Shown here one piece after another: positions 8,175 to 41,033 of a DNA stretch of 64,000 nucleotides. The notes below the pieces were generated by a model that was not told the origin of the DNA, searched no databases, and was given only the letters and a program-made list of their open reading frames with translations. Made by a program: the position numbers and the translations under genes. The stretch spans positions 5,158,314 to 5,222,313 of the forward strand of contig NZ_CP036271.1 in assembly GCF_007745175.1 (NCBI RefSeq), read 5' to 3'. This DNA is from Caulifigura coniformis. GTDB lineage: Bacteria > Planctomycetota > Planctomycetia > Planctomycetales > Planctomycetaceae. Each line of letters starts with the position of its first letter. The first letter of the stretch is position 1.

Positions 8175-10820
8175 ATGACGATTCGCAAGGTACTCGCCCT
8201 GCGAGGGCCCAATCTCTGGGCCAACTATCCAGTGCTCGAGTGTCTGGTCGACCTGGAATACTTTGAACTTCTTCCGTCCTGCGACCTCGACGGTTTCGCG
8301 GACCGGATCAAGGCGTGGCTGCCATCGATGATCGAGCACCGCTGCGGGCTCGGCTACCGCGGCGGATTCTTTGAACGCCTGGAAACCGGGACGTGGCTCG
8401 GCCATGTGCTCGAGCATGTGACTCTTGAACTGCAGTCCCTGGCCGGCTCTGTCGTCGGTTTCGGAAGGGCACGCGAGACGTCGGAACCGGGCGTCTATAA
8501 GGTGGTGATCGAATACAACGATGAAGAGGTTGGCCGGGCGGCGGTGTACGAAGCCCACGACCTCATCATGGCGGCCGTCCATCGGCAGGACTTCGACGTC
8601 GAAGCGGCTGTCGAGCGGTTGCGCCGGATTCGGGATCGCGTGGCTCTGGGGCCGAGCACGAAATCGATCGTCGACGCGGCGGCCAAACGCGGCATTCCGA
8701 TTCGCCGGCTCAATACCGACAGCTTCGTGCAGTTCGGATTCGGGAGCAAACAGCGCCGGATCATGGCGGCCGAGACCGATCGGACCAGCGCGATTGCTCA
8801 GGAAGTCGCCCAGGACAAGAACCTGACCAACCAGTTGCTGCGCGAAGCGGGAATTCCGGTTCCGCCCGGCGCGCCCGTCACTTCGGCCGACGAGGCCTGG
8901 GAAGTCGCCCAGGACATCGACGCCCCGGTCGTGGTGAAGCCCCAGGACGGAAACCAGGGGAAGGGTGTGGCCCTGAACCTGAAGACGGAAGAACAGGTTC
9001 GCGCCGCCTTTGAAGCGGCGGCCGCGATCAGCCGGCGGATCATCGTTGAGCGGTACAGCCCCGGGCAGGATTATCGGGTGCTGGTGGTCGGCGACCGGAT
9101 GGTGGCGGCGGCCCGCCGCGAGCCGGCCCAGGTCGTCGGCGACGGAGTGCATTCGATTGAGCAGCTGGTCGAGATCGTGAACCGCGATCCGCGCCGGGCC
9201 GATCATCACGCCGACATCCTGAGCAAGATCTGCCTGGACGCCGTCAGTCTCGGAGTTCTGCGCGAGCAGGGACTCTCTCCGGCGTCGATTCCGGCCACTG
9301 GCCGGCGGGTGCTGATCCGCCGGAATGCCAACCTGAGCACCGGCGGCACGGCGGTCGACGTCACCGAACTCGTGCACCCGGAAACGGCGGCCCGCGCCGT
9401 TGAGGCGGCGCAGGTCGTCGGACTCGAGATCGCCGGCGTCGATATCGTCTGTCCCGACATCTCGCGTTCGCTGGAAGAACAGAACGGCGTGATCGTCGAG
9501 ATCAATGCGGCCCCTGGGCTGCGGATGCACCTTTCCCCGTCGTCGGGCCAGGCCCGGCCGGTCGGGGATGCGATCATCGACATGATGTTCCCGGGTGAGG
9601 AGAACGGCCGGATTCCGGTCGTGGCCATCACGGGTGTGAACGGCAAGACGACCACGACGCGGTTTATCGCTCACATTTTCCGCGGGACGGGAAAGACGGT
9701 CGGCCTGACCTCGACCGACGGCATTTTCGTCGGAGACCGACGGATCGACACGGGCGACTGCAGCGGACCGAAGAGCGCGCGGGCGATCCTTTCGAATCCG
9801 AAGGTCGACTACGCCGTGCTGGAAACGGCGCGGGGCGGCATCCTGCGGGAAGGCCTGGGCTTCGACCAGTGCCAGGTCGCTGTCGTGACCAACATTGGCG
9901 AAGGGGATCACCTCGGCCTGTCGGACATCCACACCCTGGATCAGCTGGCGAAGGTCAAGCGGTGCATCGTCGACGTCGTGGCGAAAGACGGATTCGCCGT
10001 CCTCAACGCGGCTGATCCTTACGTGGTTGGCATGGCGTCGAAGTGCCCTGGCAACGTGCTGTACTTCGATATGAACGGGGACAACCCGATCATCGCGGAG
10101 CACCGGGCCAAGGGAGGCCGCGCCGTCTTTGTCCGCGACCGGCATGTCATCCTGGCGACCGGAGCCCACGAGATTCCGATCGTGAGCATCGACCGCGTTC
10201 CGCTGACGAACGCCGGCCGGATCGAATTCCATGTCGAGAACACGCTGGCCGCCATCGCGGCGGCGTGGTCGGTGGGCATCCCTGCGGAGTTGATCCGCCT
10301 GCGGGCGGAGTCGTTCCAGGCGGACCTCGACCTGAATCCTGGTCGGTTCAACATCCTGGACATCAATGGCACGACGTGCGTCATCGACTACGGCCACAAT
10401 GCATCGGCCGTCGAGGCGCTGGCCAAGTCCCTGGCTCACTTCCCGCAGCAGAAGCGGCTGGTGGTCTATTCGACCGCCGGAGACCGCCGCGATTGCGATC
10501 TTGTCCGGCAGGGCGAACTGCTCGGCCAGCACTTTGACCGCGTGATCCTGTACGAAGGGGACTACTGCCGCGGTCGCGAGCCGGGCGACATCATCCGCTT
10601 CCTCATGGAAGGGCTGAAGAACGCCCCGCGGACGGTGGAGATCATCCCGGTGCAGGGGGCGATTCCGGCCACCGAACTGGCGATCAAGATGGTGCGGTCA
10701 GACGAACTGCTGGTGATCCAGGCGGACGTGGTCGACGACACGGTGCAGTTCCTGCGTCAGAATTTTCCAAACATGACGGCCAGCGTCCCCAAACCGTCGA
10801 CCCCGGTTCCACGGGCGTGA
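8175..10820 (+). CDS. cphA: Cyanophycin synthetase
   Basis: Protein of 881 residues, the normal length for CphA, which builds the storage polymer cyanophycin (poly-aspartate backbone with arginine side chains) using ATP. The N-terminal region begins MTIRKVLALRGPNLWANYP and includes HVLEHVTLELQ. An ATP-grasp domain follows (VVVKPQDGNQGKGVALNL and VEINAAPGLRMHLSPS, with RYSPGQDYRVLV between). The C-terminal half is Mur-ligase-like, with the P-loop AITGVNGKTTTTRF at about residues 484-497 and INGTTCVIDYGHNA further on. The ATG at 8175 is favoured because other CphA proteins begin at this point. No cyanophycinase or isoaspartyl dipeptidase gene is nearby. A 13-bp hairpin follows the stop codon. 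Confidence 0.96.
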   Translation: MTIRKVLALRGPNLWANYPVLECLVDLEYFELLPSCDLDGFADRIKAWLPSMIEHRCGLGYRGGFFERLETGTWLGHVLEHVTLELQSLAGSVVGFGRARETSEPGVYKVVIEYNDEEVGRAAVYEAHDLIMAAVHRQDFDVEAAVERLRRIRDRVALGPSTKSIVDAAAKRGIPIRRLNTDSFVQFGFGSKQRRIMAAETDRTSAIAQEVAQDKNLTNQLLREAGIPVPPGAPVTSADEAWEVAQDIDAPVVVKPQDGNQGKGVALNLKTEEQVRAAFEAAAAISRRIIVERYSPGQDYRVLVVGDRMVAAARREPAQVVGDGVHSIEQLVEIVNRDPRRADHHADILSKICLDAVSLGVLREQGLSPASIPATGRRVLIRRNANLSTGGTAVDVTELVHPETAARAVEAAQVVGLEIAGVDIVCPDISRSLEEQNGVIVEINAAPGLRMHLSPSSGQARPVGDAIIDMMFPGEENGRIPVVAITGVNGKTTTTRFIAHIFRGTGKTVGLTSTDGIFVGDRRIDTGDCSGPKSARAILSNPKVDYAVLETARGGILREGLGFDQCQVAVVTNIGEGDHLGLSDIHTLDQLAKVKRCIVDVVAKDGFAVLNAADPYVVGMASKCPGNVLYFDMNGDNPIIAEHRAKGGRAVFVRDRHVILATGAHEIPIVSIDRVPLTNAGRIEFHVENTLAAIAAAWSVGIPAELIRLRAESFQADLDLNPGRFNILDINGTTCVIDYGHNASAVEALAKSLAHFPQQKRLVVYSTAGDRRDCDLVRQGELLGQHFDRVILYEGDYCRGREPGDIIRFLMEGLKNAPRTVEIIPVQGAIPATELAIKMVRSDELLVIQADVVDDTVQFLRQNFPNMTASVPKPSTPVPRA

Positions 10821-10826
10821 GATTTC

Positions 10827-10858
10827 GCACCCCGGCTGCTCACAGGCAGCCGGGGTGC
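10827..10858. repeat. REP-like palindrome, left of the transposase (may also terminate cphA)
   Basis: Perfect 13-bp inverted repeat GCACCCCGGCTGC / GCAGCCGGGGTGC with the 6-nt loop TCACAG, 6 nt after the cphA stop and followed by TTT. Fourteen bases (GCACCCCGGCTGCT) recur at 11526-11539 on the other side of the transposase gene, which points to a REP element of that transposase rather than only a terminator. Confidence 0.75.
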
Positions 10859-10879
10859 TTTGCGGTTGGGCTGACTTCT

Positions 10880-11512
10880 TTGGGCGAGCTTCTCATACCG
10901 AGAAGAAGGACGATCATTGCGCCGGGCGAGTACTACCACCTCTACAACCGTGGCGTGAATCGCGAACCGGTCTTCTTCGGACGCGATAACTACTTGTTCT
11001 TCCTGAAACGACTGCGGCGGTTCCTGTTCGATGAACAACAGGTGGCCGACCCGAGTGTCTGCGGCTCCGTGACTCGACCTGTCGAGGTTGTTGCCTATTG
11101 CCTGATGCCCAACCACTATCACCTGCTGGTTCATCTGAATGGCGACGATCTATCGGATCGAATGCAGTCGCTGTCGCAGGCCTACACCAACGCGATCAAC
11201 CGAGCTCGGGGTCGCGTCGGGCCGTTGTTTCAGGGGCGATTTGAATCGCGTCACGTCGAACGAGACGAGTATTTCCTTCACCTTTCCCGCTACATCCACC
11301 TGAATCCCGTTGTGGCGGGGCTGGTGAGCCGTGCGGAAGACTGGGAATTCTCGAGCTACCGCGACTACTCGAACTGGCGCGCCGGCGATCTACCGTCGCG
11401 GGAAGCGGTTCTTCGATCGTTCGAGTCGGGCGACGCATACTGTCGGTTTGTGAACGGGGGGACGCCTGTTCTTCCCGGTGTGTGTACTCGACTGGCAATT
11501 GATGACGATTGA
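10880..11512 (+). CDS. REP-associated tyrosine transposase (RAYT, IS200/Y1-like)
   Basis: Single-domain Y1 transposase of about 210 residues. It has the opening IIAPGEYYHLYNRG, the HUH metal-binding motif MPNHYHLLVHL, a candidate nucleophilic tyrosine in LSQAYTNAINR, and the RAYT-typical GPLFQGRFES and RYIHLNPV segments. RAYTs are domesticated IS200/IS605 relatives thought to multiply short REP palindromes. Two nearly identical palindromes lie just outside the gene (10827-10858 and 11525-11558). The start is uncertain. A GTG at 10817 overlaps the cphA stop, but translation from there would run through the left palindrome, so the TTG at 10880 is given here. The gene looks intact. Confidence 0.88.
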   Translation: MGELLIPRRRTIIAPGEYYHLYNRGVNREPVFFGRDNYLFFLKRLRRFLFDEQQVADPSVCGSVTRPVEVVAYCLMPNHYHLLVHLNGDDLSDRMQSLSQAYTNAINRARGRVGPLFQGRFESRHVERDEYFLHLSRYIHLNPVVAGLVSRAEDWEFSSYRDYSNWRAGDLPSREAVLRSFESGDAYCRFVNGGTPVLPGVCTRLAIDDD

Positions 11513-11733: not shown

Positions 11734-12585
11734 ATGGGCGTCATCCTTGGTTGTATCGTCGTGATCGGGTGCGTTCTCGGTGGCTTCATGATGGCCGGCG
11801 GGCACGTCATGGCGTTATTCCACCCCTCGGAAGTGGTGACGATCGGCGGGGCGGCGCTGGGCGCGCTGATCATCAATACGCCTCCCAAGGTTGTGATGGA
11901 CCTCATCAAGGGGACCCTCGGGCTGCTGAAGGGGAACGCCTACGGCAAGCAGACGTACATCGAGCTGTTCAAGCTGATGTACGAGATGTTCAAGATCGGC
12001 CGGCGCGATGGCCTTCTGGCATGGGACGCACACCTCAACGATCCCCATGCAAGCGCCGTGTTTTCCAAGTATCCCCGGATCGTCAACAACCACCATGTGA
12101 GCGACTTCCTCACGGGGTCGCTGCTGGCGGTGACCGACGGAAGCGCCACTCCTGAACAGCTGATCGCCCAGATGGATCAGGAAATCAAGGTGATGGAGGA
12201 TGAACACCACGCGGCGATCGCGGCCCTCTCCAAGACGGCCGACGCACTGCCGGGGTTCGGAATCGTGGCGGCCGTGCTCGGCATCGTGGTCACGATGGAA
12301 GCGGTGAGCGGTCCGGTCGAAGAGATCGGCCACAAGGTCGGTGCGGCCCTCGTCGGAACGTTCCTCGGGATTCTCGCGTCCTATGGGTTCCTGGCGCCGC
12401 TGGCGGGGCGGATGGAGTTCGCCGGCCACGATGAATCAGCGTTCCTGCGGACGATTACCAATGCGATCCTCGCGTTCCACGCGGGCGGATCGCCGAAAGG
12501 AATCATCGGGCAGCTGCGCCGGACGGTGGCGACCGACTGCCGGCCGACGCGAGAAGAGATGGAAGAGATCTTCAGCGAAGCGTAG
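11734..12585 (+). CDS. motA: Flagellar motor stator protein MotA
   Basis: Membrane protein of 283 residues, the normal MotA length (about 285). Hydrophobic segments lie at the N terminus (ILGCIVVIGCVLGGFMM), at VVTIGGAALGALIINTP, and in a C-terminal pair (FGIVAAVLGIVVTME and VGAALVGTFLGILASYGFLAPLA). The last pair holds the ion-path region and the P/V/L-rich motif of the family. With MotB it forms the proton- or sodium-driven stator that turns the flagellar rotor. The ATG at 11734 follows GAGGGGAGCGG, a strong ribosome binding site, and sets the N terminus just before the first membrane segment. It is followed after 60 bp by a MotB-like gene. Confidence 0.95.
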   Translation: MGVILGCIVVIGCVLGGFMMAGGHVMALFHPSEVVTIGGAALGALIINTPPKVVMDLIKGTLGLLKGNAYGKQTYIELFKLMYEMFKIGRRDGLLAWDAHLNDPHASAVFSKYPRIVNNHHVSDFLTGSLLAVTDGSATPEQLIAQMDQEIKVMEDEHHAAIAALSKTADALPGFGIVAAVLGIVVTMEAVSGPVEEIGHKVGAALVGTFLGILASYGFLAPLAGRMEFAGHDESAFLRTITNAILAFHAGGSPKGIIGQLRRTVATDCRPTREEMEEIFSEA

Positions 12586-12645: not shown

Positions 12646-13224
12646 ATGGCGGGCAAGGGAGGCGGCGCATGGAAGGTCGCCTATGCCGACTTCGTGACGG
12701 CCATGATGGCCTTCTTCCTCGTGATGTGGCTCGTCACGCAGGATAAGAAGGTGAAGGAAGCCGTCGCCCGCTATTTCACGGATCCGGTTGGCTTCTACCA
12801 GATCGGCTCGACCAAGAATCCGTCCGTCTCGGGCGCGATGTTCGATTCGGAAGTGCACGGGCAGGTGCCGGGCAAGAAATACCAGATCTCCGGTTCCGGC
12901 CGCGGGGCGCATGTGGACCGCGGTCAGGGGGAAGTGGAAACGACGGCAGTCACCGACTGGATCCATTCGAATCCGGACCAGGCGGCCTACTGGGCGCAGC
13001 AGGCGCAGCGACAACGGGAGGCGGCGAGCCAGTCGCAAATGGTGAAAGACAAGGTGATCACCGTGGAGGAAGCGACGCGGATCCAGTTGGCAAAGCAGAT
13101 CGAACGTGAAATGCTGGACCAACTTCCGGTCGAGATCGATCCCCTGTACCGGGAACTGGTCAAGACGTCGATGGAGTACGTCGATTGGCGCTCGGTTGCG
13201 GACCACTGCCTGAGCCGCAAGTAG
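12646..13224 (+). CDS. motB: MotB-like stator protein lacking the OmpA-type domain
   Basis: Protein of 192 residues. Its N terminus KVAYADFVTAMMAFFLVMWL (residues 10-29) is a textbook MotB membrane segment with the ion-carrying aspartate (Asp15). It is followed by a MotB-type linker (RYFTDPVGFY) and an Ala/Gln-rich, probably helical stretch. Ordinary MotB proteins are about 260-310 residues long and end in an OmpA-like peptidoglycan-binding domain. None is visible here, and the next 300 bp encode a minus-strand ferredoxin, so a simple frameshift is unlikely. It is the partner of the adjacent motA. How this stator would be anchored to the wall is not evident. Confidence 0.85.
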   Translation: MAGKGGGAWKVAYADFVTAMMAFFLVMWLVTQDKKVKEAVARYFTDPVGFYQIGSTKNPSVSGAMFDSEVHGQVPGKKYQISGSGRGAHVDRGQGEVETTAVTDWIHSNPDQAAYWAQQAQRQREAASQSQMVKDKVITVEEATRIQLAKQIEREMLDQLPVEIDPLYRELVKTSMEYVDWRSVADHCLSRK

Positions 13225-13228
13225 ACCT

Positions 13229-13543
13229 TCAGCCGGATGCCGGCGGCGACTGCTCGGCAGGAAGCGGGATGGCGCCCGGGGCCGGGCGGCCTTTACCGGC
13301 TCGAATGTATGCGGCGCGTTCGGCCTCATACTGGGCGCGCGTCATCCCTTCCTCCAGTTCACTGCCGCGCTGGGCCGTCTCGAAGTAGCGCTTCAGGGTG
13401 GCGATGCACCATCCACAGCCGGTGCCGGCGCCCCCGCACTCGCTCAGGCCGCTGGCTCGTCGCGGCTGATGGACGCGGAGGAAATTCAGCACCTTCCGCT
13501 TCGACACGTGGAAGCAGTAGCAGACGGGATCATCGAGTTCCAT
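13229..13543 (-). CDS. BFD-like [2Fe-2S]-binding protein
   Basis: Protein of 104 residues with a bacterioferritin-associated-ferredoxin-like domain. The cluster ligands are visible as CYC (Cys8, Cys10) and, 32 residues on, CGWC (Cys43, Cys46), the CxC-x32-CxxC spacing of this family. The remaining C-terminal half is charged and then Pro-rich and carries no known domain. BFD proteins pass electrons to bacterioferritin to release iron, or act as modules of larger redox enzymes. No bacterioferritin gene is close by. It lies 64 bp downstream of bshB1 on the same strand and may be co-transcribed with it. Its 3' end is 4 bp from the motB-like stop codon. Confidence 0.85.
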   Translation of the reverse strand: MELDDPVCYCFHVSKRKVLNFLRVHQPRRASGLSECGGAGTGCGWCIATLKRYFETAQRGSELEEGMTRAQYEAERAAYIRAGKGRPAPGAIPLPAEQSPPASG

Positions 13544-24461: not shown

Positions 24462-24814
24462 AGGATTTCCGCAGGGGGTGGGAGTGGGCCTCTATCGTCC
24501 GGTGATCGGCGGCAAGTGGCAACCAACTTGGGGCAGGTTCCGGGGATGTCGCGATGGGACGGAGCGGAACGTTTCTTCCCGGTCATTCCTCCCCGATCCG
24601 ATCGTTTCGTTCCGGCAGGTTTTGCGACTCGATCGGGATCCAGTCGGTGGCGCTCGGGGATTCTGATGGGCGCAAGTTCCAGCGACTCTTGAGGATCGCG
24701 TGAGAGGGCCGCCGCCGGAATGGGCGCGAAAGCAGGACCGGGCACGGCCCGTGCAATGCGACCGTTACCTGACCGGGCGTCGACACGCTCGCTTTGCGCC
24801 GAGATTCCAGCCGC
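24462..24814. other. 353-bp divergent promoter region before fliK
   Basis: No gene seen. TGGCA-ACCAAC-TTGGG at 24517-24531 resembles a sigma-54 promoter in spacing but has GG in place of the expected GC of the -12 box, so it is only a weak candidate for fliK transcription. Confidence 0.35.
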
Positions 24815-26518
24815 ATGAACACGTCGCTTCTCTCGTTCCTTTCCGCCGCTCCACCTCCGGAACCGACTTCGCAGCCACGCCCTGCGAAGAGCGAACAGGT
24901 TGCGCCCGGGGAACTGGACGAGTTGGAGTCGAGCCAGCCCGATTCCGCGGGCGACTCGGACAAGATGGATGCGTTCGCCGAAATGCTCGCGGCGATGATG
25001 TCGGTCTCGACGCCGCTCGCTGAATCCCCGGGAGAGACCACCGGGTCCACAGTGGTCGACTCTGCGACGGCCTTGTCGACTGATGTGCCGCGCGACGGCG
25101 CCGGCTCTCCGCTGTTCACGTCCAGCTTCACGACGACGACCGCCGCAGATTCGAACTCGGCCGTGATGACCGTCACGACGACTGAAGTCGCCCCGACAGC
25201 GGACACGACGGCGATGTCGACGAGCGAGACCACCTCCGACCTGGCCGGCGTCCCGAGCGACGCTACCGCAGCCGCGGAACTGGCCGGGCTTGGTGTCGAA
25301 ACACTTGAGACAGCCCCTGTCGCTGAAGAATCGCCCGTCGTCGTGGACGTACTGACGACGGAGGACGAGCGGCTCACGCTCGAGGCGCCGGAGGCGGTCG
25401 CGGACGAGCCCGCCCGTCCCGAAGTTCCCGTTGTCGCAGTCCGAGAGTCGGCGGCTGCACAGACCACAACCGACGATCGACCGGTTTCAACGGAGCTGGC
25501 CGTCGAAACGGAAGGCCTGGACGAGCCGGCTCCCTCCGAAGGGCCCACGTTGGAGAAGCCCGAGGGACAGCATTCGCATCCCATTCTGAAAGAGGCGATC
25601 CCTGAGTCGCCGGTGGCCGATGTCGATGTGACGCCGGCCGAACCGGTGATGCCTGAAGCGCCTGTGGCGGAGAGTGAAGTCCACCCGGTCGCGGGAGAGC
25701 CGCCCGTCGTCCAGGCATCGGACCTCGAATCTGCCAATCCGCTTGAAGAAACGCAGCAGGTTGAGAGTGCATCAGGCAGCGACCGGGCGACGGCCGCGCC
25801 AAAGTCAGAACGTGCGACGACCGCCGCGCCGAATCGACCTGTGACGGCGAGCCCTGAAGTGGGGGGCGCCTCGGAACCAGTACTGCCGGACGTCCTCGCT
25901 CCCGTGGAACAGACCTCAGGGGTGGCGCTTCAGAACGATGCGGCGCGAGGTCACAAGGTCCATCAGGATTCGCGAGACGACGAGTTCGCCGCGATGGCGG
26001 CGATGGATGGGGAAGCCGTCCCCGCCACGGCTGGACCGATGGTGGAAGGAGCCGTGGGTCGGCCCGCATCGATCGCCACCATCAGCTCGGGCGACGCGGC
26101 CGCTTCGGCTGCACCGGTCAATGTCACCCAGCAGGTGATGCAGGCGCTGGCTGCGTACGAAGCGGACCTGCCGCAGAACGGAGCGAGGTCGTTCGAAATG
26201 CTGCTCGATCCCCCGGAACTCGGACGCCTGCTGGTGCAGATGTCGCGCACGTCCAAGGGGGTCGATGTCCGGATCTCAGCAGAGAACGAATCGGTCCGCT
26301 CGATGCTCGAAACCAGCGGGGCGGAACTGCAGCAAAGCCTTCAGCTCTCCGGTTTCGACCTGGGCCAGTTCAGCGGGTCGAACTCAGGGGGAGCGTTCGC
26401 CGGTGGTGAAGAATGGGTCTCCGCCCCCACGCTGCAATCGTTTGCCACCGGCGCAGGTGTCGTCCGCACCACTCCGAAGTCTGTCACCGCGAATTCCGCC
26501 ATCAACGTCGTCGTCTGA
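24815..26518 (+). CDS. fliK: Flagellar hook-length control protein FliK
   Basis: Protein of 567 residues. About the first 400 are low-complexity, rich in Ala, Thr, Glu, Pro and Val, as in the ruler part of FliK. The C-terminal domain has the FliK signature: RSFEMLLDPPELGRLLVQMS, then VDVRISAENESVRSMLE and ELQQSLQLSGFDLGQFS. FliK measures hook length and switches export specificity with FlhB, and is itself secreted. The ATG at 24815 is chosen over a TTG at 24794. It heads the fliK-flgD-flgE gene set. Confidence 0.9.
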   Translation: MNTSLLSFLSAAPPPEPTSQPRPAKSEQVAPGELDELESSQPDSAGDSDKMDAFAEMLAAMMSVSTPLAESPGETTGSTVVDSATALSTDVPRDGAGSPLFTSSFTTTTAADSNSAVMTVTTTEVAPTADTTAMSTSETTSDLAGVPSDATAAAELAGLGVETLETAPVAEESPVVVDVLTTEDERLTLEAPEAVADEPARPEVPVVAVRESAAAQTTTDDRPVSTELAVETEGLDEPAPSEGPTLEKPEGQHSHPILKEAIPESPVADVDVTPAEPVMPEAPVAESEVHPVAGEPPVVQASDLESANPLEETQQVESASGSDRATAAPKSERATTAAPNRPVTASPEVGGASEPVLPDVLAPVEQTSGVALQNDAARGHKVHQDSRDDEFAAMAAMDGEAVPATAGPMVEGAVGRPASIATISSGDAAASAAPVNVTQQVMQALAAYEADLPQNGARSFEMLLDPPELGRLLVQMSRTSKGVDVRISAENESVRSMLETSGAELQQSLQLSGFDLGQFSGSNSGGAFAGGEEWVSAPTLQSFATGAGVVRTTPKSVTANSAINVVV

Positions 26519-26557: not shown

Positions 26558-26917
26558 ATGGCAGCCATTACTTCAGAGCTGGGACAGGCGCAGTTCATGC
26601 AACTGCTGATTGCTCAGCTCAAGAACCAGGATCCGATGGATCCGGTGAGCCAGGAAGACTCGATCGCCCAGCTCGCGCAGTTCTCGACGCTGGAAGGGAT
26701 CGAAAAACTCAACGCGAACTTCTCGTCCTTCATGAAGCTGCAACAGCTTTCGGAAGGAGCGAGCCTCGTGGGGAAGAATGTGGAGTGGCTGGACGAGGAC
26801 GGCGTTCGCCAGCAGGGCGTCGTCGACTCGATTTCGGTCAAGGAGGGGGACCTGCAGTTGAAGATCGATGGCAAGGACATCCCGATCGACAACGTGACGT
26901 CGATTCTCAACGGTTGA
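26558..26917 (+). CDS. flgD: Flagellar hook-cap scaffold FlgD, short form
   Basis: Protein of 119 residues with the conserved FlgD N-terminal region FMQLLIAQLKNQDPMDPV and FSTLEGIEKLNANF. A short Tudor-like strand region follows (GKNVEWLDEDGVRQQGVVDS). It lacks the Ig/FN3-like insert found in the 230-residue enterobacterial protein and is closer in size to Firmicute FlgD. FlgD caps the growing hook so that FlgE subunits can be added. It lies between fliK and flgE, the classic order. Confidence 0.93.
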   Translation: MAAITSELGQAQFMQLLIAQLKNQDPMDPVSQEDSIAQLAQFSTLEGIEKLNANFSSFMKLQQLSEGASLVGKNVEWLDEDGVRQQGVVDSISVKEGDLQLKIDGKDIPIDNVTSILNG

Positions 26918-26984: not shown

Positions 26985-28655
26985 ATGGCTGTGGGAAACG
27001 CATTGTTGACGGGTGTGTCGGGTCTGAACTCGCACCAGAAGATGCTGGAGGTCATCGGTAACAACCTCGCCAACCTGAACAGCACGGCCTACAAAGCGCA
27101 GCGGGTGCTGTTTTCTGACCTGCTGTACCAGACGGTATCGGCCGCATCGTCAGGTTCGAACGGACTGATCGGCGGCATCAACCCGTCGCAGGTCGGTAGC
27201 GGAAGCCAGGTGGGGCAGATCACCGCAAACTTCACGCAGGGCAACCTCGAGCCGACCGGGCAGAACCTCGACTTCGCCATCGACGGAGACGGGTTCTTCG
27301 TGGTGAGCGGCGGCGGCGCCCCGAAGTACACCCGTGCCGGTTCGTTCTCGGTCGATGCCGATGGTCTCCTGATCGACCCGTCGACGGGCTATCGCGTGCA
27401 GCGGTTCGGAGACGCGGGCGAGCCGAACGGCCTGGATCCATCGTTCCAGATCGCAGGGGACATGAACATTCACGTTCCCTTTGGCGCCAGCATTCCCGGC
27501 AAGACGACGTCCCTGGTGAACCTGGTGGGCAACCTGTCATCCGATTCGGTGGGACCGGCAGCGGAAGTGCTCTCGACCAATGCCCCCTGGCTTTCAGGCG
27601 GTTTGCCGGCGACGAACGCGACGCTGCTCAACTCCCTGGAATCCATGGTCACCCCTTACGCAGCCGGCGACTCGCTGCAGTTCACCGGCACGAATAAGGA
27701 CGGCACGCCAGTCAACACGACCTTCAATGTCGGTCCGACCACCACGGTCGGAGACATGCTGAATGCCATCACTGCCGCATTCCCGGATGGAACCGCCACG
27801 ATCGACGTGGATGGCAACATCCAGCTGACGTCGAACACGACTGGCGAAGCGCTGTTCAGCGTTCAGATTCGTGACGTGACGGGCAACACCGGAGCGGTGC
27901 GGTTCGACACGCATCCATTCGTCGTCGCCGAGAACGGCCGGGAAGGGACGAAAGTGCTGGGCGGATTTGAGGTTTATGACATCCGCGGCAAAGCTCACTC
28001 GGTCACGACGACGCTGCAGAAACAGGCCGACGGCAGCTGGAACCTGTCGGCGACGATTCCGTCGGGAGACGGCACAATCCTCGACGGACAGATTGACAAC
28101 ATTCGCTTCAACGACGACGGCTCGTTCCTCGAGGCGGGCGGCGTTGGCCTGGCCGACTTGAACCTGTCGTTCACCTGGCGCGACCTTGCCCAGCCCCAGG
28201 TCATCACACTCAGCTTCGGTTCGCAGAACTCATACGACGGCATGACGCAGCTGTCGGCCGCGTCGACGACCTCGGCGTTCCAGGACGGCTATGCATCGGG
28301 AACGCTGACGGAAGTCCGCATGAGCTCCAATGGCCTGATCGAAGGCGTTGCGACCAACGGCCGCAGCATTCCTCTTGCCCAGCTGGCGATTGCGACTTTC
28401 CGCAATCCGAGCGGTCTGACTCGCTCGGGGAGCAACTACTACGACACCTCGCTGGCGTCGGGTGACGCCGAGATCGGCACGGCCCTGTCGGGCGACCGCG
28501 GAACCGTGAAGTCGAATTACCTCGAGCGTTCGAACGTCGATATCGCTCTCGAGTTCACGCAGCTGATCACGGCCCAGCGCGGCTTCTCTGCCAACGCCCG
28601 AACGATCACGGTGACAGATGAGGTTCTTCAGGAACTCACAGGTCTGATTCGGTAA
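26985..28655 (+). CDS. flgE: Flagellar hook protein FlgE
   Basis: Protein of 556 residues. The N-terminal rod/hook signature GVSGLNSHQKMLEVIGNNLA (about residues 8-27) and NLDFAIDGDGFFVVSGGG mark the FlgE/F/G family. The C-terminal helix EFTQLITAQRGFSANARTIT closes the D0 region. The long central part forms the exposed hook domains. FlgE polymerises into the flexible hook. Its last 20 bp overlap the 3' end of the convergent lipoprotein gene at 28636. Confidence 0.95.
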   Translation: MAVGNALLTGVSGLNSHQKMLEVIGNNLANLNSTAYKAQRVLFSDLLYQTVSAASSGSNGLIGGINPSQVGSGSQVGQITANFTQGNLEPTGQNLDFAIDGDGFFVVSGGGAPKYTRAGSFSVDADGLLIDPSTGYRVQRFGDAGEPNGLDPSFQIAGDMNIHVPFGASIPGKTTSLVNLVGNLSSDSVGPAAEVLSTNAPWLSGGLPATNATLLNSLESMVTPYAAGDSLQFTGTNKDGTPVNTTFNVGPTTTVGDMLNAITAAFPDGTATIDVDGNIQLTSNTTGEALFSVQIRDVTGNTGAVRFDTHPFVVAENGREGTKVLGGFEVYDIRGKAHSVTTTLQKQADGSWNLSATIPSGDGTILDGQIDNIRFNDDGSFLEAGGVGLADLNLSFTWRDLAQPQVITLSFGSQNSYDGMTQLSAASTTSAFQDGYASGTLTEVRMSSNGLIEGVATNGRSIPLAQLAIATFRNPSGLTRSGSNYYDTSLASGDAEIGTALSGDRGTVKSNYLERSNVDIALEFTQLITAQRGFSANARTITVTDEVLQELTGLIR

Positions 28656-30521: not shown

Positions 30522-31235
30522 CTAGGCGAGGCGCCTGACTTCACGACGACGCATCGAATCCCGCAACCGCTGCTCCGCTCGGGAGAGAATCCGGCTCACC
30601 CGCGATTCGGAGAGATTCAACACTTCTCCAATCTCCTTCAGCCGCATGTCGTCCAGGTGGTACATCGAGACCACCAGCCTGTCCGTGCGGGGGAGCTGCT
30701 CAATGGCATCTGCCAGAAGGCGCGACTGGTCCGCCTTCTCGATGCCTTCAGCCGGGTCGACCCGGTGATAGACGCCGCCGGACGACATTTCCTCGCGCCA
30801 GCTCTCGGGCCGTGTGAGGCGAATCGCTTCCATGCACTCATCGATCTCGTCGATCGACAGGCCGGTGCGCTGGGCGAGGATTTCGGAATCAGGAAGCGAC
30901 GTCGTCCCGCCCGCGGCGCGGCGGATCACCGACCAGCGCTGCAGCATCTGCTGGGGAAGCGGACAGTTGCGGCGCAGTTCATCCAGGATCGCTCCGCGAA
31001 TGCGCGGGAATGAATAGGTCTTGAACGCCACTCCGCGAGCGGCGTCGAACTGGCCTGCTGCTTCCACAAGGCCCAGCACTCCCGCGGCCTCGAGGTTTTC
31101 ACAGTCGATCCCCTTGGGAAGCCCGGACACGATTCGGCCGAGCACGTGCCGCACGAACTCCAGGTGATCAACGATCAACTGGTCGCGGCTGTTGCGACTG
31201 GCGACGTGGCGGTAGGCTCGAGCGATGGCTTCCAT
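30522..31235 (-). CDS. fliA: RNA polymerase sigma factor of the FliA/WhiG (sigma-28) family
   Basis: Sigma-70-family protein of 237 residues, the normal length for sigma-28. Region 2 includes VDHLEFVRHVLGRIVSGLP and AAGVLGLVEAAGQFDAARGV, then FKTYSFPRIRGAILDELRR. Region 3 follows, and region 4 ends with VSMYHLDDMRLKEIGEVLNL and SESRVSRILSRAEQRLRDSM. Sigma-28 directs late flagellar genes (filament, motor, chemotaxis). It is placed downstream of flhA in the same orientation, as in other flagellar operons, but flhF and flhG are missing between them. Confidence 0.93.
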   Translation of the reverse strand: MEAIARAYRHVASRNSRDQLIVDHLEFVRHVLGRIVSGLPKGIDCENLEAAGVLGLVEAAGQFDAARGVAFKTYSFPRIRGAILDELRRNCPLPQQMLQRWSVIRRAAGGTTSLPDSEILAQRTGLSIDEIDECMEAIRLTRPESWREEMSSGGVYHRVDPAEGIEKADQSRLLADAIEQLPRTDRLVVSMYHLDDMRLKEIGEVLNLSESRVSRILSRAEQRLRDSMRRREVRRLA

Positions 31236-31627: not shown

Positions 31628-33745
31628 CTATGCGGCTGCGGCGGCCGTTCGCTGGCCCGCGCGGGATTCGTCGACGGCTGGCTCGTCGAAGACGGCCGCA
31701 AATCGCGCCATCCCGACCGGGTTGAGCATGATGTCGGCGGGAACTTCCGTGTAACTCAGTGTGCCCAGGTCAGGCAGGGCACGGGTGAGCAGCTTGCGAA
31801 GCGGCCTGCGGAGCCGGCGATCCATGATGAGGGCCACTTCGATTCTCTGACGCGCCGCGGACCGCCAATGCTCGCCAATCTCCTCGAGCAGCTTCTCGAG
31901 TCGCTTGCCGTCCAGAGCGAGCTGGCCCTCGTGCAGCGATTCGCGAAGCCTCGCTTCGAGTCTGGGTTCCAGAACGATGACCTGCAGTCGCGCCGTGTCG
32001 TCGCAGAAGCGCCCGCAGATGATGCGGCCGATGTCCTCGCGGACCTTGTCGAGCAGATCGTCCGGGGCCTTGGTCGTGGTTCCGTGGTTGGCGATCGACT
32101 CCAGAATGAGCACCAGGTCCGAGAGCGGAACTCGCTCCGCCGCGAGCTGGACCAGAACCTGGTGCAGCGTTCCCATTCGAACAACGTCGGGTTTCAGCTC
32201 CTCGACGATGGTCGGGGCCTGCTCTTTCACCTTGTCGAGCATCTTGCGGACGTCTTCACGGCTGAGCAACTCGGAGCCGTGGCGTTTCAGGATTTCGCCG
32301 AGGTGCGTAATGAGCACGCTCGCAGGGTCGACGACGGTGTAACCGGAGAACTCCGCCTGGCGCTGGATGGCTGGTTCGATCCACTTGGCCGGCATCCCGA
32401 ATGCCGGGTCGGTCGTTTCCTCACCAGGGATTGCGACGGTGGCCGCTTCGGGCGCGATCGCCAGCATGAGGTCGACCCGTAGCGTTTTGCGGGCGGCCTC
32501 CCGTCCGGCGATCACCACGCGATATTCCTCGGGGCCAAGCTCGAGGTTGTCGCGGATGCGGATCGGCGGAATCCAGATGCCGTTCGATTTCGCGAAGTCG
32601 CGGCGGAGGGATGTAATGCGGTCGGCAATTCCGCGGGCCCGTTTGGGATTCACCAGCGGAATCAGGCGCGCCCCCACTTCGACGACTGCACGATCCTGAA
32701 CGAGGAACTCTTCGAGCTGACGCTTCTCGTCGAACTCGGGCGTCGGTGGCAGGGCGGGCTCGGCGCTCGCCGCCGGCTTCACCGGGGCGGGACGGCGCAG
32801 GCGACGAATGTGCCAGATCACGCCGACGGTCAACAGGACGAATGGAATCTTGGGAAGGCCCGGGACCATGCCGAGCAGCAGGAACATGCCCGCGGCCATC
32901 CACAGCGGACGGTCGTTGGAAAACAGCTGCTTGCCGATTTCCTGCCCGAGGTTGGCCTCGGAGCTGTTCTTGGTGACGAGGATACCGGCGGTCGTGGCCA
33001 CGATCAGGGCGGGGATCTGCGAGATGAGACCGTCGCCGATCGAGAGGACCGAGTAGGTGTGGATCGATTCCCCGACCGACATCCCGCGGCTGACGCCGAG
33101 GATCGCCCCGCCGAAGAGATTGATCGCCGTGATAATCAGGCCGGCGATAGCGTCGCCGCGGACGAACTTGCTGGCCCCGTCCATGGAGCCGTAGAACTCC
33201 ATCTCACGGCCGAGAAGCTCGCGTCGCTTTCGGGCTTCCGCTTCGTTGATGGCGCCGGCGTTCATCTCGGCGTCGATCGCCATCTGCTTGCCGGGCAACG
33301 CATCGAGTGTGAATCGCGCGGAGACTTCCGAAACTCGCTCTGAGCCTTTCGTGATCACGATGAACTGGATCACGATCAGGATCAGGAAGATCACCAGTCC
33401 GACGACGAGATTTCCGCCGACGACCATGCCGCCGAAGGTCTCGACGATCTTTCCGGCGTCGCCATCGAGCAGGACGAGCCGTGTCGTGGCGACGTTGAGC
33501 GACAGGCGGTACAGCGTCAGCAGCAGCAGAAGCGACGGGAAGACCGACAGGTCGAGCGGCTGCTTCGCGCTCATCGTGATGAGCAGCAGCAGCAGCGTCA
33601 GCCCCAGGTTGAAAGCCAGCAGCATGTCGAGCAGGGCCGTCGGAAGCGGCACGAGCATGACGACCAGGATGCACAGCATCCCCCCGGCCAGCAGGAGTTC
33701 ACTCTGCAGGAAGCGGCTGGCGGTGGGTGAGGTCGGGGTAGACAC
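31628..33745 (-). CDS. flhA: Flagellar export apparatus protein FlhA
   Basis: Protein of 705 residues, normal length. The N-terminal half has about eight membrane segments (LLAGGMLCILVVMLVPLPTA; LLLLLTLYRLSLNVATTRLV) and the FHIPEP-type region around SARFTLDALPGKQMAIDAEM, with the conserved loop GDAIAGLIITAINLFGGAIL. The cytoplasmic C-terminal domain (from about residue 340) docks export chaperones; phrases such as YTVVDPASVLITHLGEILKR are conserved. FlhA forms the ring of the type III export gate. It follows fliP after 47 bp; fliQ, fliR and flhB are not between them. Confidence 0.97.
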   Translation of the reverse strand: MSTPTSPTASRFLQSELLLAGGMLCILVVMLVPLPTALLDMLLAFNLGLTLLLLLITMSAKQPLDLSVFPSLLLLLTLYRLSLNVATTRLVLLDGDAGKIVETFGGMVVGGNLVVGLVIFLILIVIQFIVITKGSERVSEVSARFTLDALPGKQMAIDAEMNAGAINEAEARKRRELLGREMEFYGSMDGASKFVRGDAIAGLIITAINLFGGAILGVSRGMSVGESIHTYSVLSIGDGLISQIPALIVATTAGILVTKNSSEANLGQEIGKQLFSNDRPLWMAAGMFLLLGMVPGLPKIPFVLLTVGVIWHIRRLRRPAPVKPAASAEPALPPTPEFDEKRQLEEFLVQDRAVVEVGARLIPLVNPKRARGIADRITSLRRDFAKSNGIWIPPIRIRDNLELGPEEYRVVIAGREAARKTLRVDLMLAIAPEAATVAIPGEETTDPAFGMPAKWIEPAIQRQAEFSGYTVVDPASVLITHLGEILKRHGSELLSREDVRKMLDKVKEQAPTIVEELKPDVVRMGTLHQVLVQLAAERVPLSDLVLILESIANHGTTTKAPDDLLDKVREDIGRIICGRFCDDTARLQVIVLEPRLEARLRESLHEGQLALDGKRLEKLLEEIGEHWRSAARQRIEVALIMDRRLRRPLRKLLTRALPDLGTLSYTEVPADIMLNPVGMARFAAVFDEPAVDESRAGQRTAAAAA

Positions 33746-33792: not shown

Positions 33793-34470
33793 CTACTGAA
33801 AACTCGAACTGAGCGACTTCAGCAGCAGCGGCCAGCCATCGACGAGAACGAAGAGCAGCAGCTTGAGGGGCGTCGAGATAATCACCGGGGGCATCATCAT
33901 CATGCCGAGCGACATAAGGATGACGCTGACCACGAGGTCGATCAGCAGGAAGGGAACGTAGATGCAGAAGCCCATGATGAAGGCGGTTTTGAGCTCGCTC
34001 GTCACGAACGCCGGAATCATCACGCGGGCGGGGATGTCGTCCGGTCCTTCGACGGGATCGAGACGGGCCATCTCCATGAACAGCTTGAGGTCACTGGCGC
34101 GCGTCTGCCGGATCATGAATTTCCGGAGTTGCGTCCAGGCTTCCACGCATGCCTTCTCCGCGGAGAGCTCCTTGTTCATGTAAGGGCCGATGGCATGCTT
34201 CTCGACTTGCTCAAACGTCGGCCCCATGACGAACAGCGTCAGGAACAGCGACAGCCCGAGCAGAACCGGCGTCGGCGGGATTTCCTGTGTCGACAGGGCC
34301 CTGCGGATGAACGAGAGGACGATGACGATCCGGGTGAACGCGGTCAGAGTTACCAGCGCCGACGTCAGGAACGCCATTCCGCCGAGGAACAGCGCAATCT
34401 GCATCGGGGCCGAAAGTCCGCCAGTTCCGCCGGCTTCGGTGAGCTGCTGGCTCAGTCCGAGCGGATTCAT
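33793..34470 (-). CDS. fliP: Flagellar export gate protein FliP
   Basis: Protein of 225 residues with the family blocks ALVTLTAFTRIVIVLSFIRR, PVLLGLSLFLTLFVMGPTF, PAFVTSELKTAFIMGFCIYV and PFLLIDLVVSVILMSLGMMM. FliP is the main subunit of the export pore with FliQ and FliR. It lacks the cleaved signal peptide found in enterobacterial FliP, giving a shorter protein. It overlaps fliO by 4 nt. Confidence 0.96.
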   Translation of the reverse strand: MNPLGLSQQLTEAGGTGGLSAPMQIALFLGGMAFLTSALVTLTAFTRIVIVLSFIRRALSTQEIPPTPVLLGLSLFLTLFVMGPTFEQVEKHAIGPYMNKELSAEKACVEAWTQLRKFMIRQTRASDLKLFMEMARLDPVEGPDDIPARVMIPAFVTSELKTAFIMGFCIYVPFLLIDLVVSVILMSLGMMMMPPVIISTPLKLLLFVLVDGWPLLLKSLSSSFQ

Positions 34471-35402
34471 GACGCCGCCCCTTTCGACCGTTCTTCGTGG
34501 CGCAGGGCGCTGAAGAGGTCGGCGACGCGTTCAAAGCCGCCCGCGGGAGCTGTCTCTTCGCCCTGTGCGCTGTCGGCCGCTTCGAGCGACTCGCTGAAAT
34601 CCGCGGGCAGCGGCATCAGACACATGGTCTTGCCATGCTCAACGCCAACGAGCACCCGGTGCGCTTCGGCCTGGACCAGGTAGACGCCGCAACGCGGTCC
34701 GATGCGGAGCGTGTCGACAAGCTTGAGGGATTTCGAGGGGAGAACGCCGCGTCCGCCGCGGGTCAGCCAGAGTTTCAGCATCCAGAGCGAAACGACGGCG
34801 CCGAGACCGATCGTCGCGGTGATCCACACCATGCCGTGCAGCATGCCTTCGAGGTCTTCCGCGGAGGCGGACGTGGCCGTTGCTTCCGCCGGAGCCGTGC
34901 TCGGCTCTTCCTCGGAGACGGGACGTGGAACGAACGTGACCGGAAGTTCCTCGTCAGTCGGCTCAGGAGGGCTCAGGACCGGGTGTGCCTGGGCCGCCCG
35001 CATCGGCGAGACGAGGCTCGCGGCAGCGGTGTCGACGACCGGGGCGGGAATCGCTGGAAGCTCAACGGCCTGAACCGGCACGAGACGCTCTTCCGGGACG
35101 ACGTCGCGCAGCGAACGCCGGGTCTCCGGGGACGACTGCCAGGGCTTGTTGGCGGGGCGACGGTCCTCCAGGGGTTCCCAGCCGGGAGGAAGCGCCGTGA
35201 ACGGATTGGCCTGCCCGGCCGGCTCGACCGCGGCCTCCGGTTGAGGAGTGGGCCGGGAGGGCGACTGGAAGATGTCGGACGGAGCGACCTGTGGCAGTCC
35301 AATGTCGTCGTCCGCGCTCAGGACGCCGGCGATGTGGAGGGTGGCGACCGACGCCGCGACCCACAGCACGCGTACTGGAAGATGCGTTGTGGGAATCTTC
35401 AT
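34467..35402 (-). CDS. fliO: Flagellar biosynthesis protein FliO with long N-terminal extension
   Basis: Protein of 311 residues. A signal-like N terminus (MKIPTTHLPVRVLWVAASVA) is followed by about 190 Pro/Ala/Glu-rich residues, a membrane segment (MVWITATIGLGAVVSLWMLK) and the FliO domain (KSLKLVDTLRIGPRCGVYLV, then HRVLVGVEHGKTMCLMPLP). FliO helps assemble the FliP ring. Typical FliO proteins are 100-220 residues, so the extracytoplasmic extension is long. The ATG at 35402 is preferred over the upstream codon at 35495. It lies between fliN and fliP, the standard place. Confidence 0.85.
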   Translation of the reverse strand: MKIPTTHLPVRVLWVAASVATLHIAGVLSADDDIGLPQVAPSDIFQSPSRPTPQPEAAVEPAGQANPFTALPPGWEPLEDRRPANKPWQSSPETRRSLRDVVPEERLVPVQAVELPAIPAPVVDTAAASLVSPMRAAQAHPVLSPPEPTDEELPVTFVPRPVSEEEPSTAPAEATATSASAEDLEGMLHGMVWITATIGLGAVVSLWMLKLWLTRGGRGVLPSKSLKLVDTLRIGPRCGVYLVQAEAHRVLVGVEHGKTMCLMPLPADFSESLEAADSAQGEETAPAGGFERVADLFSALRHEERSKGAAS

Positions 35403-35498
35403 GGCGATCCGTCGCTCTTGAAACCGCGGCGGCGTCCTGCCGTCACGGAGGGTTCGTTGGTTGAATGAGGGCCCGGAGGTGGGATTCCCCCGCAAGTC

Positions 35499-35897: not shown

Positions 35898-36764
35898 TCA
35901 GTCCTCCATCACTTCATCAATGGCAAAACAGACGCGCCCGCCGACCCGGCCCGGCCGTCCCTGGAATTTCGGTCGGCCTGCCACGCGGGCCGTGAGCAGG
36001 TCGTTGGTTGTCTGGTCGAGGACGAGCACGTCCCCCAGTTTCAGCGACTCGGCCTCGTTGACCGACAGCTGGACACGTCCCAGTTCGACGCTGAAGGGCA
36101 TCGGGACCAGCGGAGCCAGGTCGGCCATCCGGGCGCTGGGAGTTGCCTTGGGGGCCGGAGCCGGCAGTGCCTCGCCGCAGAGATGCTCGAGCTGTTCATG
36201 GGTCGCGATCAGGAGGATCGAATCCTCACCCGCGGCTGTCGTAACCTGAAACTGGGCCGCAGCGAGGAGAATCGCGGGGTCGAACAGTCGGGCCCGGGAC
36301 GTGCGCAGGACAGGGCGGACAAACGCGGTCACCATGGCCTCTCGCGACGGCCAGGCATCGGACAGGCCGACGGCGAACCGCTCGAACAGCATCTTCGCGA
36401 GCGAAAGCTCGATCGATGTGAGAGACCGGTCCGCCGGCCACTCGGTGCTCTGGACCCCGAGGAGCCCCTGGACGAGAGAAAGCAGCAGTCCGGTGCGAAA
36501 TGACATCGCCGCGGGAATCCTGGCCTTGCCGATGTGCAGGAGCGCGGAGACATCAGGATCGGGCAGGTTCGACAGTGCGGTGCGGGCGTCCTGGGTGAAG
36601 ACGGTCTGGTAGCTGACTTTCGCCGTCACGCCGAACTCGGAGAACGTCTCGTTCATCCGAACGGCGGCGTCTTTCAACCAGCGATCCGCGACGCGACGCG
36701 CATCGGCCGAAATGCCGCGCGCGTGGCGAGGGTCGAAGGGCTGGACTGCGGCCTGCGTGGTCAT
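35898..36764 (-). CDS. fliM: Flagellar motor switch protein FliM
   Basis: Protein of 288 residues. The FliM middle domain is recognisable (GKARIPAAMSFRTGLLLSLV and LTSIELSLAKMLFERFAVGL), and the C-terminal SpoA domain is at PMPFSVELGRVQLSVNEAES then LKLGDVLVLDQTTNDLLTAR. FliM links FliG to FliN in the C-ring and normally binds CheY-P through an N-terminal peptide. The usual LSQxEIDALL peptide is not obvious here, and the protein is shorter than the 330-residue average. It overlaps fliL by 4 nt. Confidence 0.9.
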   Translation of the reverse strand: MTTQAAVQPFDPRHARGISADARRVADRWLKDAAVRMNETFSEFGVTAKVSYQTVFTQDARTALSNLPDPDVSALLHIGKARIPAAMSFRTGLLLSLVQGLLGVQSTEWPADRSLTSIELSLAKMLFERFAVGLSDAWPSREAMVTAFVRPVLRTSRARLFDPAILLAAAQFQVTTAAGEDSILLIATHEQLEHLCGEALPAPAPKATPSARMADLAPLVPMPFSVELGRVQLSVNEAESLKLGDVLVLDQTTNDLLTARVAGRPKFQGRPGRVGGRVCFAIDEVMED

Positions 36765-37276
36765 TGGATCATGAAGTCCTCAAAGAGGACGTCGTAGATG
36801 CGGTCGTATCCATCGGTGAACAGCATCGAGTTGAACCGCTCGAGGATCTCTCGCTTCAGCATGTTCTTGCCGGCGCCGCCGCGAACGTCGTCCATGTCCT
36901 TGTCGCCAAGGTGGATCAGCAGCCAGCTTTTCAGCGGCACCTTCTTCTCAGCGATCAGGTCGGTGACGATCTTTTCCTGCGTCGCGTCGACCTGGAACGC
37001 CATCTTGATCGCGAGGTAGTGCGGCTGAACCTCGTTCAGATTCACGCGGATGTCGTCGAACGGGATGACGACCAGCTTCTCCGCCTGCTTGGCGACGGGA
37101 GCCTCCGTCTTGTGCTCCTCCGCCTTCTCCGCATGCGACTTGCTGGTGAGCAGCATGGGGACGAAGAAGCCGGCGGCTCCGGAGACGAGCGAGACAATCG
37201 CCCATACGACAAGCCCCGGCCCCTTCTTCGGGGGGGCTTGCTCGTCATGACCAGGGTTCGTCGGTTTTGCGGACAC
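36761..37276 (-). CDS. fliL: Flagellar basal body-associated protein FliL
   Basis: Protein of 171 residues with one N-terminal membrane segment (GLVVWAIVSLVSGAAGFFVP) and the periplasmic FliL domain (VVIPFDDIRVNLNEVQPHYL, AIKMAFQVDA, and a C-terminal DRIYDVLFEDFMIQ). FliL surrounds the stator and stabilises it. It is the first gene of the long minus-strand operon and lies divergent from flgF. Confidence 0.93.
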   Translation of the reverse strand: MSAKPTNPGHDEQAPPKKGPGLVVWAIVSLVSGAAGFFVPMLLTSKSHAEKAEEHKTEAPVAKQAEKLVVIPFDDIRVNLNEVQPHYLAIKMAFQVDATQEKIVTDLIAEKKVPLKSWLLIHLGDKDMDDVRGGAGKNMLKREILERFNSMLFTDGYDRIYDVLFEDFMIQ

Positions 37277-38512: not shown

Positions 38513-39310
38513 ATGATTCGCGCGTTATATACCAGCGCCACGGGCATGAAGGCGCAGGAAATGTTGATCGACGTGACGGCCAACAACCTGGCCAACGTCA
38601 ACACGACCGCCTTCAAACGGAGCCAGGTCAACTTTGCCGATCTCATCTACTCCACGCAGAAGCCTGCGGGAACGGAGATCGCTGCTGGCGTGCAGACGCC
38701 GACTGGAATGCAGGTCGGCACTGGCGTTCGTCCCGTTTCGACGAACAAGCTGTTCCTGAACGGCACGCTCCAGCAGACCGGAAATGCGCTCGACGTGGCG
38801 ATCGAAGGGGAAGGCTTCTTCCGCGTCGATCTGCCCAGCGGCGAGGCCCGGTACACCCGTGACGGCTCGTTCCGCATGGACAGCGCGGGCCAGCTTGTCA
38901 CGGCCGACGGTTACATCCTCGCTGGCGGCGTCCGGGTTCCTCCGGGTGTGACCATCGACAAGATCAACATCGGAACCGACGGCACGGTCACGGCCGTCCA
39001 GGGAGGCGCCACCAATGCCACTCTCAACCTCGGCCAGATGCAGATCGTGCGGTTCGTGAATCCCTCGGGGCTCAGCAGCGAAGGGAGCAACCTGTACGCG
39101 GAATCCGCCGCGTCCGGTCCGGAGACGCAGGGCGTCCCGGGTGTCGACGGCATGGGCACGCTCCGCCAGCACGCGCTGGAAGGCTCGAATGTGGAAGTCG
39201 TGACGGAACTGATCGGGCTGATCTCGGCCCAGCGCGCCTACGAAATCAATTCACGAGCCATCCGCGCCGGTGACGAGATGCTGTCGACGACCACGGAGAT
39301 GATCCGATGA
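38513..39310 (+). CDS. flgG: Flagellar distal rod protein FlgG
   Basis: Protein of 265 residues, the normal FlgG length. It shows LYTSATGMKAQEMLIDVTAN, then NLANVNTTAFKRSQVNFADL, the FlgG-specific insertion GVQTPTGMQVGTGVRPVSTN, and the C-terminal EGSNVEVVTELIGLISAQRA. FlgG forms the distal rod through the P and L rings. It overlaps flgA by 4 nt. Confidence 0.96.
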   Translation: MIRALYTSATGMKAQEMLIDVTANNLANVNTTAFKRSQVNFADLIYSTQKPAGTEIAAGVQTPTGMQVGTGVRPVSTNKLFLNGTLQQTGNALDVAIEGEGFFRVDLPSGEARYTRDGSFRMDSAGQLVTADGYILAGGVRVPPGVTIDKINIGTDGTVTAVQGGATNATLNLGQMQIVRFVNPSGLSSEGSNLYAESAASGPETQGVPGVDGMGTLRQHALEGSNVEVVTELIGLISAQRAYEINSRAIRAGDEMLSTTTEMIR

Positions 39311-40984: not shown

Positions 40985-41033
40985 CGAGCTGCAGCATCTC
41001 ATTGTCCATCCTGTTCCCCGTCTGAAGTCTCCC

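Follow-up and report, generated by a model that had tools for sequence, protein, structure and literature searches.

Organization of the motAB locus

The window analyzed here, a 64,000-nucleotide stretch of the Caulifigura coniformis genome (one contig of 6,761,146 bases, 99.91% complete), carries a motA gene, a short motB gene directly behind it, and a flagellar gene cluster that spans 24.8 to 46.4 kb and lies about 12 kb from the pair (Table 1). The motA product matches the MotA_N (E = 1.7e-28) and MotA_ExbB (E = 6.2e-11) families. The motB reading frame runs from ATG to TAG and encodes a complete protein, in which Pfam MotB_plug (PF13677) covers residues 4 to 47 (E = 1.2e-15; 57.3 bits against a cut-off of 24), Asp15 sits within KVAYADFVTAMM, and hydrophobicity identifies a single hydrophobic segment. 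The membrane segment with its Asp15 is intact and the gene follows motA, as the original prediction stated.

Anchoring of MotB to the cell wall through its OmpA domain is treated as basic to stator torque. The original prediction held that this MotB has no peptidoglycan-binding domain, and indeed a Pfam profile search of the 192 residues finds no OmpA-like domain up to E = 1; among NCBIfam models, PRK09041 MotB comes nearest, pairing residues 3 to 174 with its positions 21 to 187 of 287 at 75.4 bits, far below its cut-off of 277. The accompanying claim that the protein stops some 70 to 120 residues short did not hold: it is not cut short, and residues from about 93 to 190 constitute a conserved domain related to DUF7249, so that OmpA appears to have been replaced rather than just lost. 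A whole-genome search for MotB_plug found one place above the family cut-off and a second only at E = 0.485, so that no additional, full-length MotB passes that cut-off.

Table 1. Features of the window around motAB and in the flagellar cluster
Feature	Position	Strand	Remarks
motA, E. coli-type (TIGR03818 MotA1)	11734-12585	+	283 aa; 313.6 bits, cut-off 303.8
short motB	12646-13224	+	192 aa; no other MotB_plug protein of the genome passes the cut-off
membrane helix with Asp15 and plug region	12646-12789	+	residues 1-48
linker	12790-12921	+	residues 49-92; pLDDT mostly below 50; conserved Gly54, Gly72, Pro75, Gly85
C-terminal helical domain, DUF7249-homologous, in the place of OmpA	12922-13221	+	residues 93-192
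BFD-like [2Fe-2S] protein	13229-13543	-	Fer2_BFD, E = 1.9e-7; at the site where the rest of motB would be; outside the stator
fliK	24794-26518	+	
flgD	26558-26917	+	
flgE	26985-28655	+	
sigma-70-type factor	30522-31235	-	
flhA	31628-33745	-	
fliP	33793-34470	-	
fliO	34467-35495	-	
fliM/N-type	35898-36764	-	
fliL	36761-37276	-	
flgG-type rod gene	38513-39310	+	
flgA	39307-40323	+	
flgH	40361-40984	+	
flgI	40905-42149	+	ORF
flgK	42861-44855	+	
flgL-like, Flagellin_N protein	44921-46354	+	

Behind motB the original prediction had placed a minus-strand ferredoxin, reasoning that the C-terminal domain could not merely be out of frame. A minus-strand gene does lie there; its product is better named a BFD-like protein. 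When the window was compared with a locus of the same genus (L069), only MotA, MotB, and reading frames overlapping them paired at E ≤ 1e-10, and the BFD-like protein did not. Directly upstream of motA is a transposase-like reading frame (10817-11512), probably of the REP type, and it may be the reason that motAB and the flagellar cluster are separated in the window.

Distribution of the short form among planctomycetes

Relatives were checked for the same short form. It was read at lengths of 183 to 225 residues in 43 planctomycete genomes, of which 14 belong to the window's family and 29 to two other families. These other families (f101 and f104) were linked to Gemmataceae and Gemmatales through MotA sequences identical to those of loci carrying Gemmataceae or Gemmatales names (L070 to L074). 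All 43 proteins were read, and the last ten read all end in a stop codon. Within the window's family (170 genomes), the 192-residue MotB found matches in 26 at E ≤ 1e-5, in 14 of them end to end; the other matches cover the membrane part only or, in G444, the tail alone. An alignment of 19 short MotBs searched against 397 genomes of the class matched 79 at E ≤ 1e-10, of which 40 matched over the whole model, all at E = 1e-62 or better (11 in the window's family, 2 in f104, and 27 in f101). Eleven genomes belong to both the 14 and the 40, giving 43. Nearly all the remaining class matches extend over the first 50 to 97 positions or so, where the open frames are mostly of 240 to 330 residues, as expected for full-length MotB; a few others are tail only, and fragmentary matches in G766, G710, G696, and G709, the last from another family, were excluded from the 43.

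Within this set, the short form is constant in arrangement and in key residues. A motA gene lies no more than 300 nucleotides upstream of the short motB in 42 of the 43 genomes, the exception being G720, with no motA in the 1.5 kb upstream. The 48 short-motB loci compared represent the 43 genomes, five of them twice; in all 33 distinct sequences, Asp15, Thr99, Trp116, and Ala185 are invariant. The short form is the sole MotB_plug protein (E ≤ 0.01) in 18 of 19 short-MotB genomes; in the nineteenth, G490 (86% complete), two further, adjacent MotB_plug places occur beside it at G490:C169:2722-3472. The dN/dS ratio of the MotB tail was 0.05 to 0.10 in three close pairs, indicating purifying selection, with dS saturated in more distant pairs.

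In a MotA tree of 74 rows (37 with short MotB), the window's MotA groups with planctomycete MotAs, and the window's family, Gemmataceae, and Gemmatales of both MotB kinds form one group, with other planctomycetes outside. The tree left out 17 of 57 full-length loci that had no MotA and 3 with a partial one, and also the short locus L045, in which MotA is cut. On this tree the short form calls for at least two changes, one of them forced by well-supported branches; a single clade was not rejected (p-AU = 0.54, by a quick method).

A C-terminal domain related to DUF7249

The identity of the tail emerged from within the genome. MotB residues 93 to 190 match an unlinked 122-residue reading frame, L061, at 27% identity (E = 3.6e-6, or 6.9e-13 with an alignment), and L061 is a standalone DUF7249 protein (Pfam E = 5.7e-9, 37.3 against a cut-off of 27; phrog_871, E = 2.2e-10). 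Scanning viral contigs with L061 yielded at least 538 relatives, of which 80 were kept. When the MotB tails were compared with viral DUF7249 by hhalign, the match scored 98.7% (E = 3.3e-16, 88 columns), and three tail clades taken singly scored 98.1, 98.6, and 95.6%. Among the controls, the highest value from 30 column shuffles was 0.44%, two reversed profiles reached 0.87 and 1.07%, and the N-terminal part of the protein gave 0.34%.

Profile searches in both directions were specific. An HMM built from 41 viral DUF7249 members and L061 was run at E ≤ 1e-3 against 17,053 ORF segments. Its matches were the 80 viral DUF7249 proteins, L059, L061, and 65 segments of short MotB, which comprise 34 distinct tails at values from E = 1.9e-11 to 2.7e-5; the 53 remaining segments bearing the MotB motif all went unmatched. 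Since the loci searched had been chosen with these families, the result measures specificity and not frequency. The converse HMM, of the tail, matched the 65 short-MotB segments, 56 of the 80 viral proteins, and the cellular L059 and L061, and nothing else at E ≤ 1e-3.

The tail and DUF7249 have nevertheless diverged. Both are domains of about 95 residues that share their helix order and W, DL, V.W, and A positions; unlike DUF7249 (PF23907; phrog_871), the MotB tail is fused to a membrane helix, and the Pfam profile itself reports no match to it up to E = 10. The motif YNGWTNYETW is invariant in 41 viral members, and neither NGW nor ETW occurs in any of the 33 distinct short MotBs. We read the tail as a probable descendant of DUF7249 that lost the original motif.

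The prediction of structure called for by the original note on this gene returned an all-helical domain for the last 100 or so residues. In an AlphaFold2 model made from seven sequences, helices span residues 96-108, 110-128, 131-134 (short), 140-158, 166-176, and 181-190, with no strands; pLDDT was 80 to 87 in blocks of ten over residues 101 to 190 and under 50 in most of the linker. Predicted viral DUF7249 (41 sequences, mean pLDDT 92.7) has helices at 12-23, 25-41, 50-69, 77-87, and 91-100, the same order as in the tail, the two being compared by order only and not by superposed coordinates. Foldseek searches of the PDB with the MotB and DUF7249 models found no solved structure at E ≤ 0.001, so that the fold gives no clue to function. 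A VIA-align comparison shows nothing (best Z = 3.7), and against viral models Foldseek gave none at E ≤ 0.001, the top two rows being uncharacterized phage proteins (probability 0.93 and 1.00; E = 0.076 and 0.14) that were not counted. Weak matches of the tail to NRBF2 (E = 0.027) and to a tail fibre (E = 0.0065) were taken as chance.

DUF7249 is a common phage family of unknown function, for which the short MotB provides a cellular setting. L061 itself (G000:C1:982181-982474) has genes for a TrwC relaxase and a VWA protein nearby, in what looks like a mobile element.

Flagellar genes accompanying the short MotB

C. coniformis Pan44 is described as a stalked strain of the Planctomycetaceae in which flagella were not observed (PMC7717036). 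Genes of the FlhA (FHIPEP), FliG_C, and FlgI families were present in all 25 genomes searched, 19 with short and 6 with full-length MotB. FHIPEP alone cannot tell flagella from type III secretion. A second FHIPEP gene, of FlhA/SctV type, occurs in the window's genome at G000:C1:699410-701341 besides flhA of the window, and the same-genus genome G087 also has a second.

Linkage to flagellar genes is closer in some other genomes than in the window. In Gemmataceae bacterium CJuql4 (L072), motA and motB are followed by a gene for a tetratricopeptide repeat (TPR) protein, fliK, flgD, and flgE; a further locus, L073, keeps homologues of these genes in the same order, and in G400 motB lies 6.8 kb from fliG. 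In the window, synteny is broken upstream of fliK, and the TPR gene is not beside motB.

The flagellar proteins of the two sets of genomes also differ in score. The best FliG_C matches were 84.9 to 116.8 bits in the 19 short-MotB genomes versus 128.0 to 153.3 in the six full-length genomes, and the best FlgI matches were 346.6 to 414.9 bits in 18 short-MotB genomes versus 183.2 to 242.4 in the six; in the nineteenth, G437, FlgI is split over contigs (196 and 108 bits). Two FliG_C proteins, one of each score class, occur in G392, whose MotB is full-length. The rotor and ring proteins that accompany the short MotB thus form a set of their own, a contrast that is not independent among these related genomes and may reflect ancestry only.

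Comparison with known ion-driven motors

Like the E. coli-type MotAB stator, the pair in the window has an adjoining A subunit of the MotA1 type, a MotB membrane helix with its Asp, a plug, and flagellar rotor and ring genes; it is unlike that stator in its short MotB, where a DUF7249-derived helical domain stands instead of the OmpA-like domain. Membership in the TGI5 group (PMC12505986) is suggested by the MotA1 match, not by a count of helices. We treat the short MotB as a putative flagellar stator B subunit of the working type, predicted to exert torque on the rotor. A 2025 survey of 379 homologues counts the OmpA domain as a trait that sets flagellar stators apart from all others (PMC12505986), and the OmpA-less short MotB is a real exception to the flagellar B subunits surveyed there. 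In the open-licence literature searched, we found no published account of this form of MotB.

Other ion-driven motors built of A and B subunits, such as GldLM, TolQR, and AglRQS, have B subunits with other periplasmic domains (PMC9389320), and AglQ/S are credited with a TolR-like wall-binding domain in the same source. They differ from the pair described here, which has an A subunit of flagellar MotA type and genes that lie among flagellar genes or in genomes that have them. In polar motors, stators are held by periplasmic scaffolds that include TPR proteins, exemplified by the MotX/MotY T-ring of Vibrio and by PflA/PflB of Campylobacter jejuni; unlike the short-MotB stator, those stators are described as peptidoglycan-anchored too (PMC7990780). 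The ZorAB proteins of the anti-phage motor Zorya were considered and rejected: ZorB matched only at E = 0.022 over residues 11 to 31, NCBIfam ZorB1 scored 13.1 bits against a cut-off of 400, and MotA gave no match.

How the stator might be anchored

The original prediction left the choice between anchoring by another protein and a different kind of stator, which was the right question; the idea that a free-standing OmpA protein anchors these stators in general is not supported. Free-standing OmpA-domain proteins were looked for in the C. coniformis genome, where OmpA (PF00691) occurs once at E ≤ 0.1 (G000:C1:5694066-5694383), in a 279-residue protein (L003:1432-2271) unlinked to motAB. This predicted lipoprotein (lipobox judged by eye) has a coiled-coil-like stretch and an OmpA domain resembling those of MotD and MotB. 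That it anchors the stator in trans is quite unlikely in our judgment. It is the genome's only OmpA protein, MotD is the NCBIfam model that it fits best (E = 1.9e-24, below that model's cut-off), and an OmpA-domain protein lies 8 to 9 kb from motB in G554 and G662; relatives of the 279-residue protein at 44 to 51% identity, however, are present where MotB is full-length (G274, G315, G369, G392, and G448). All 14 Planctomycetaceae genomes with short MotB have one to three OmpA matches, and 23 of the 29 Gemmatales-type genomes have one at E ≤ 0.001 (20 over the cut-off), yet the remaining six (G544, G560, G611, G686, G694, and G728) have no match at that threshold. Moreover, 9 of the 12 Gemmataceae OmpA proteins read, including those of G554 and G662, belong to one family (L292 to L295 and L297 to L301) that no test tied to flagella, presumably one that joins an MCE/MlaD-like part to an OmpA-like end.

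Wall binding by the DUF7249-derived domain itself, to peptidoglycan or to another periplasmic polymer, would conserve anchoring and change only the fold. The domain occupies the position of OmpA and is under purifying selection, and planctomycetes have peptidoglycan (PMC7717036). Nothing found ties DUF7249 to the wall, however, and the viral members begin near the NGWTNYETW stretch, apparently with no room for an export signal; we consider this reading unlikely. It is improbable that the stator is unanchored or serves something other than a flagellum, for example as a membrane-moving motor of the kind discussed for AglRQS gliding. The different periplasmic domains of other 5:2 motors (PMC9389320) and the lack of observed flagella in Pan44 (PMC7717036) would agree with such a role; set against it are a MotA of the flagellar MotA1 type, the short form as the only MotB_plug protein in nearly all of the genomes searched, each of which has FlhA-, FliG-, and FlgI-family genes, and the proximity of motB to fliK-flgD-flgE in L072 and to fliG in G400. 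The same observation on Pan44 (PMC7717036) could point to a decaying relic. This we find scarcely credible, along with a sequencing error: truncation, frameshift, and misassembly are ruled out by the same form in 43 genomes and by the other protein encoded behind the stop, and the universal Asp15 and low dN/dS in close pairs speak against decay.

Very probably, then, a DUF7249-derived domain has replaced OmpA in the B subunit of a flagellar stator, a conclusion from sequence comparison that draws on the same membrane helix, Asp, and plug, the adjoining motA, the homology to DUF7249, the wide conservation, and the short form being the sole B subunit in 18 of 19 genomes with flagellar genes. Given such a replacement, we favor anchoring through a protein partner, for which we see an even chance, because a TPR gene lies behind motB in many genomes and the stators of polar motors are held by periplasmic scaffolds. 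We lean slightly toward the whole of this explanation, in which a flagellar stator B subunit with a DUF7249-derived domain in place of OmpA is anchored by a protein partner.

With the usual topology of MotB, the helical domain would lie in the periplasm, where the domains may pair within the MotB dimer. The MotA5B2 unit would then be held beside the rotor by the tail binding a basal-body protein or a periplasmic scaffold, and not by OmpA-style binding of peptidoglycan. Candidate partners are the P-ring protein FlgI, which is of a distinct type in short-MotB genomes, FliL, and the TPR protein with its hydrophobic N-terminus. More tentatively, a domain from a phage and mobile-element family may have been domesticated as a periplasmic stator anchor, making contact with a dedicated scaffold (TPR protein, P-ring, or both) and having no wall-binding domain of its own. 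If so, this would be, to our knowledge, the first known case of a flagellar motor that runs although its B subunit does not bind the wall. Planctomycete motors whose MotB has no wall-binding domain suggest that the stator is held in place in some other way, and a conserved natural lineage of this kind makes the stator's need to touch the wall directly testable and lets one ask what the motor's periplasmic scaffold can do alone.

In 17 of 27 Gemmataceae-type genomes, including L072 (6554-7288, plus strand), motB is followed by the gene for the TPR protein, which is coiled-coil-like; this gene was not seen beside motB in the other 10 of these loci or in two other Gemmatales, where the flanks are short. 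No homologue was found in about 164 kb of the C. coniformis genome (the window and positions 5222314 to 5322000), a reading frame of L302 at E = 0.055 not being counted. In the same-genus genome G087, a distant homologue (L308:17222-18241, minus strand; E = 7.3e-14) lies upstream of genes for a sigma-54 regulator and fliK. By hydrophobicity only, the 11 motB-linked TPR proteins tested and the G087 homologue all have a hydrophobic N-terminal stretch, and one of the TPR proteins shows a weak likeness to GltC, at E = 2.6e-5 and well short of the cut-off.
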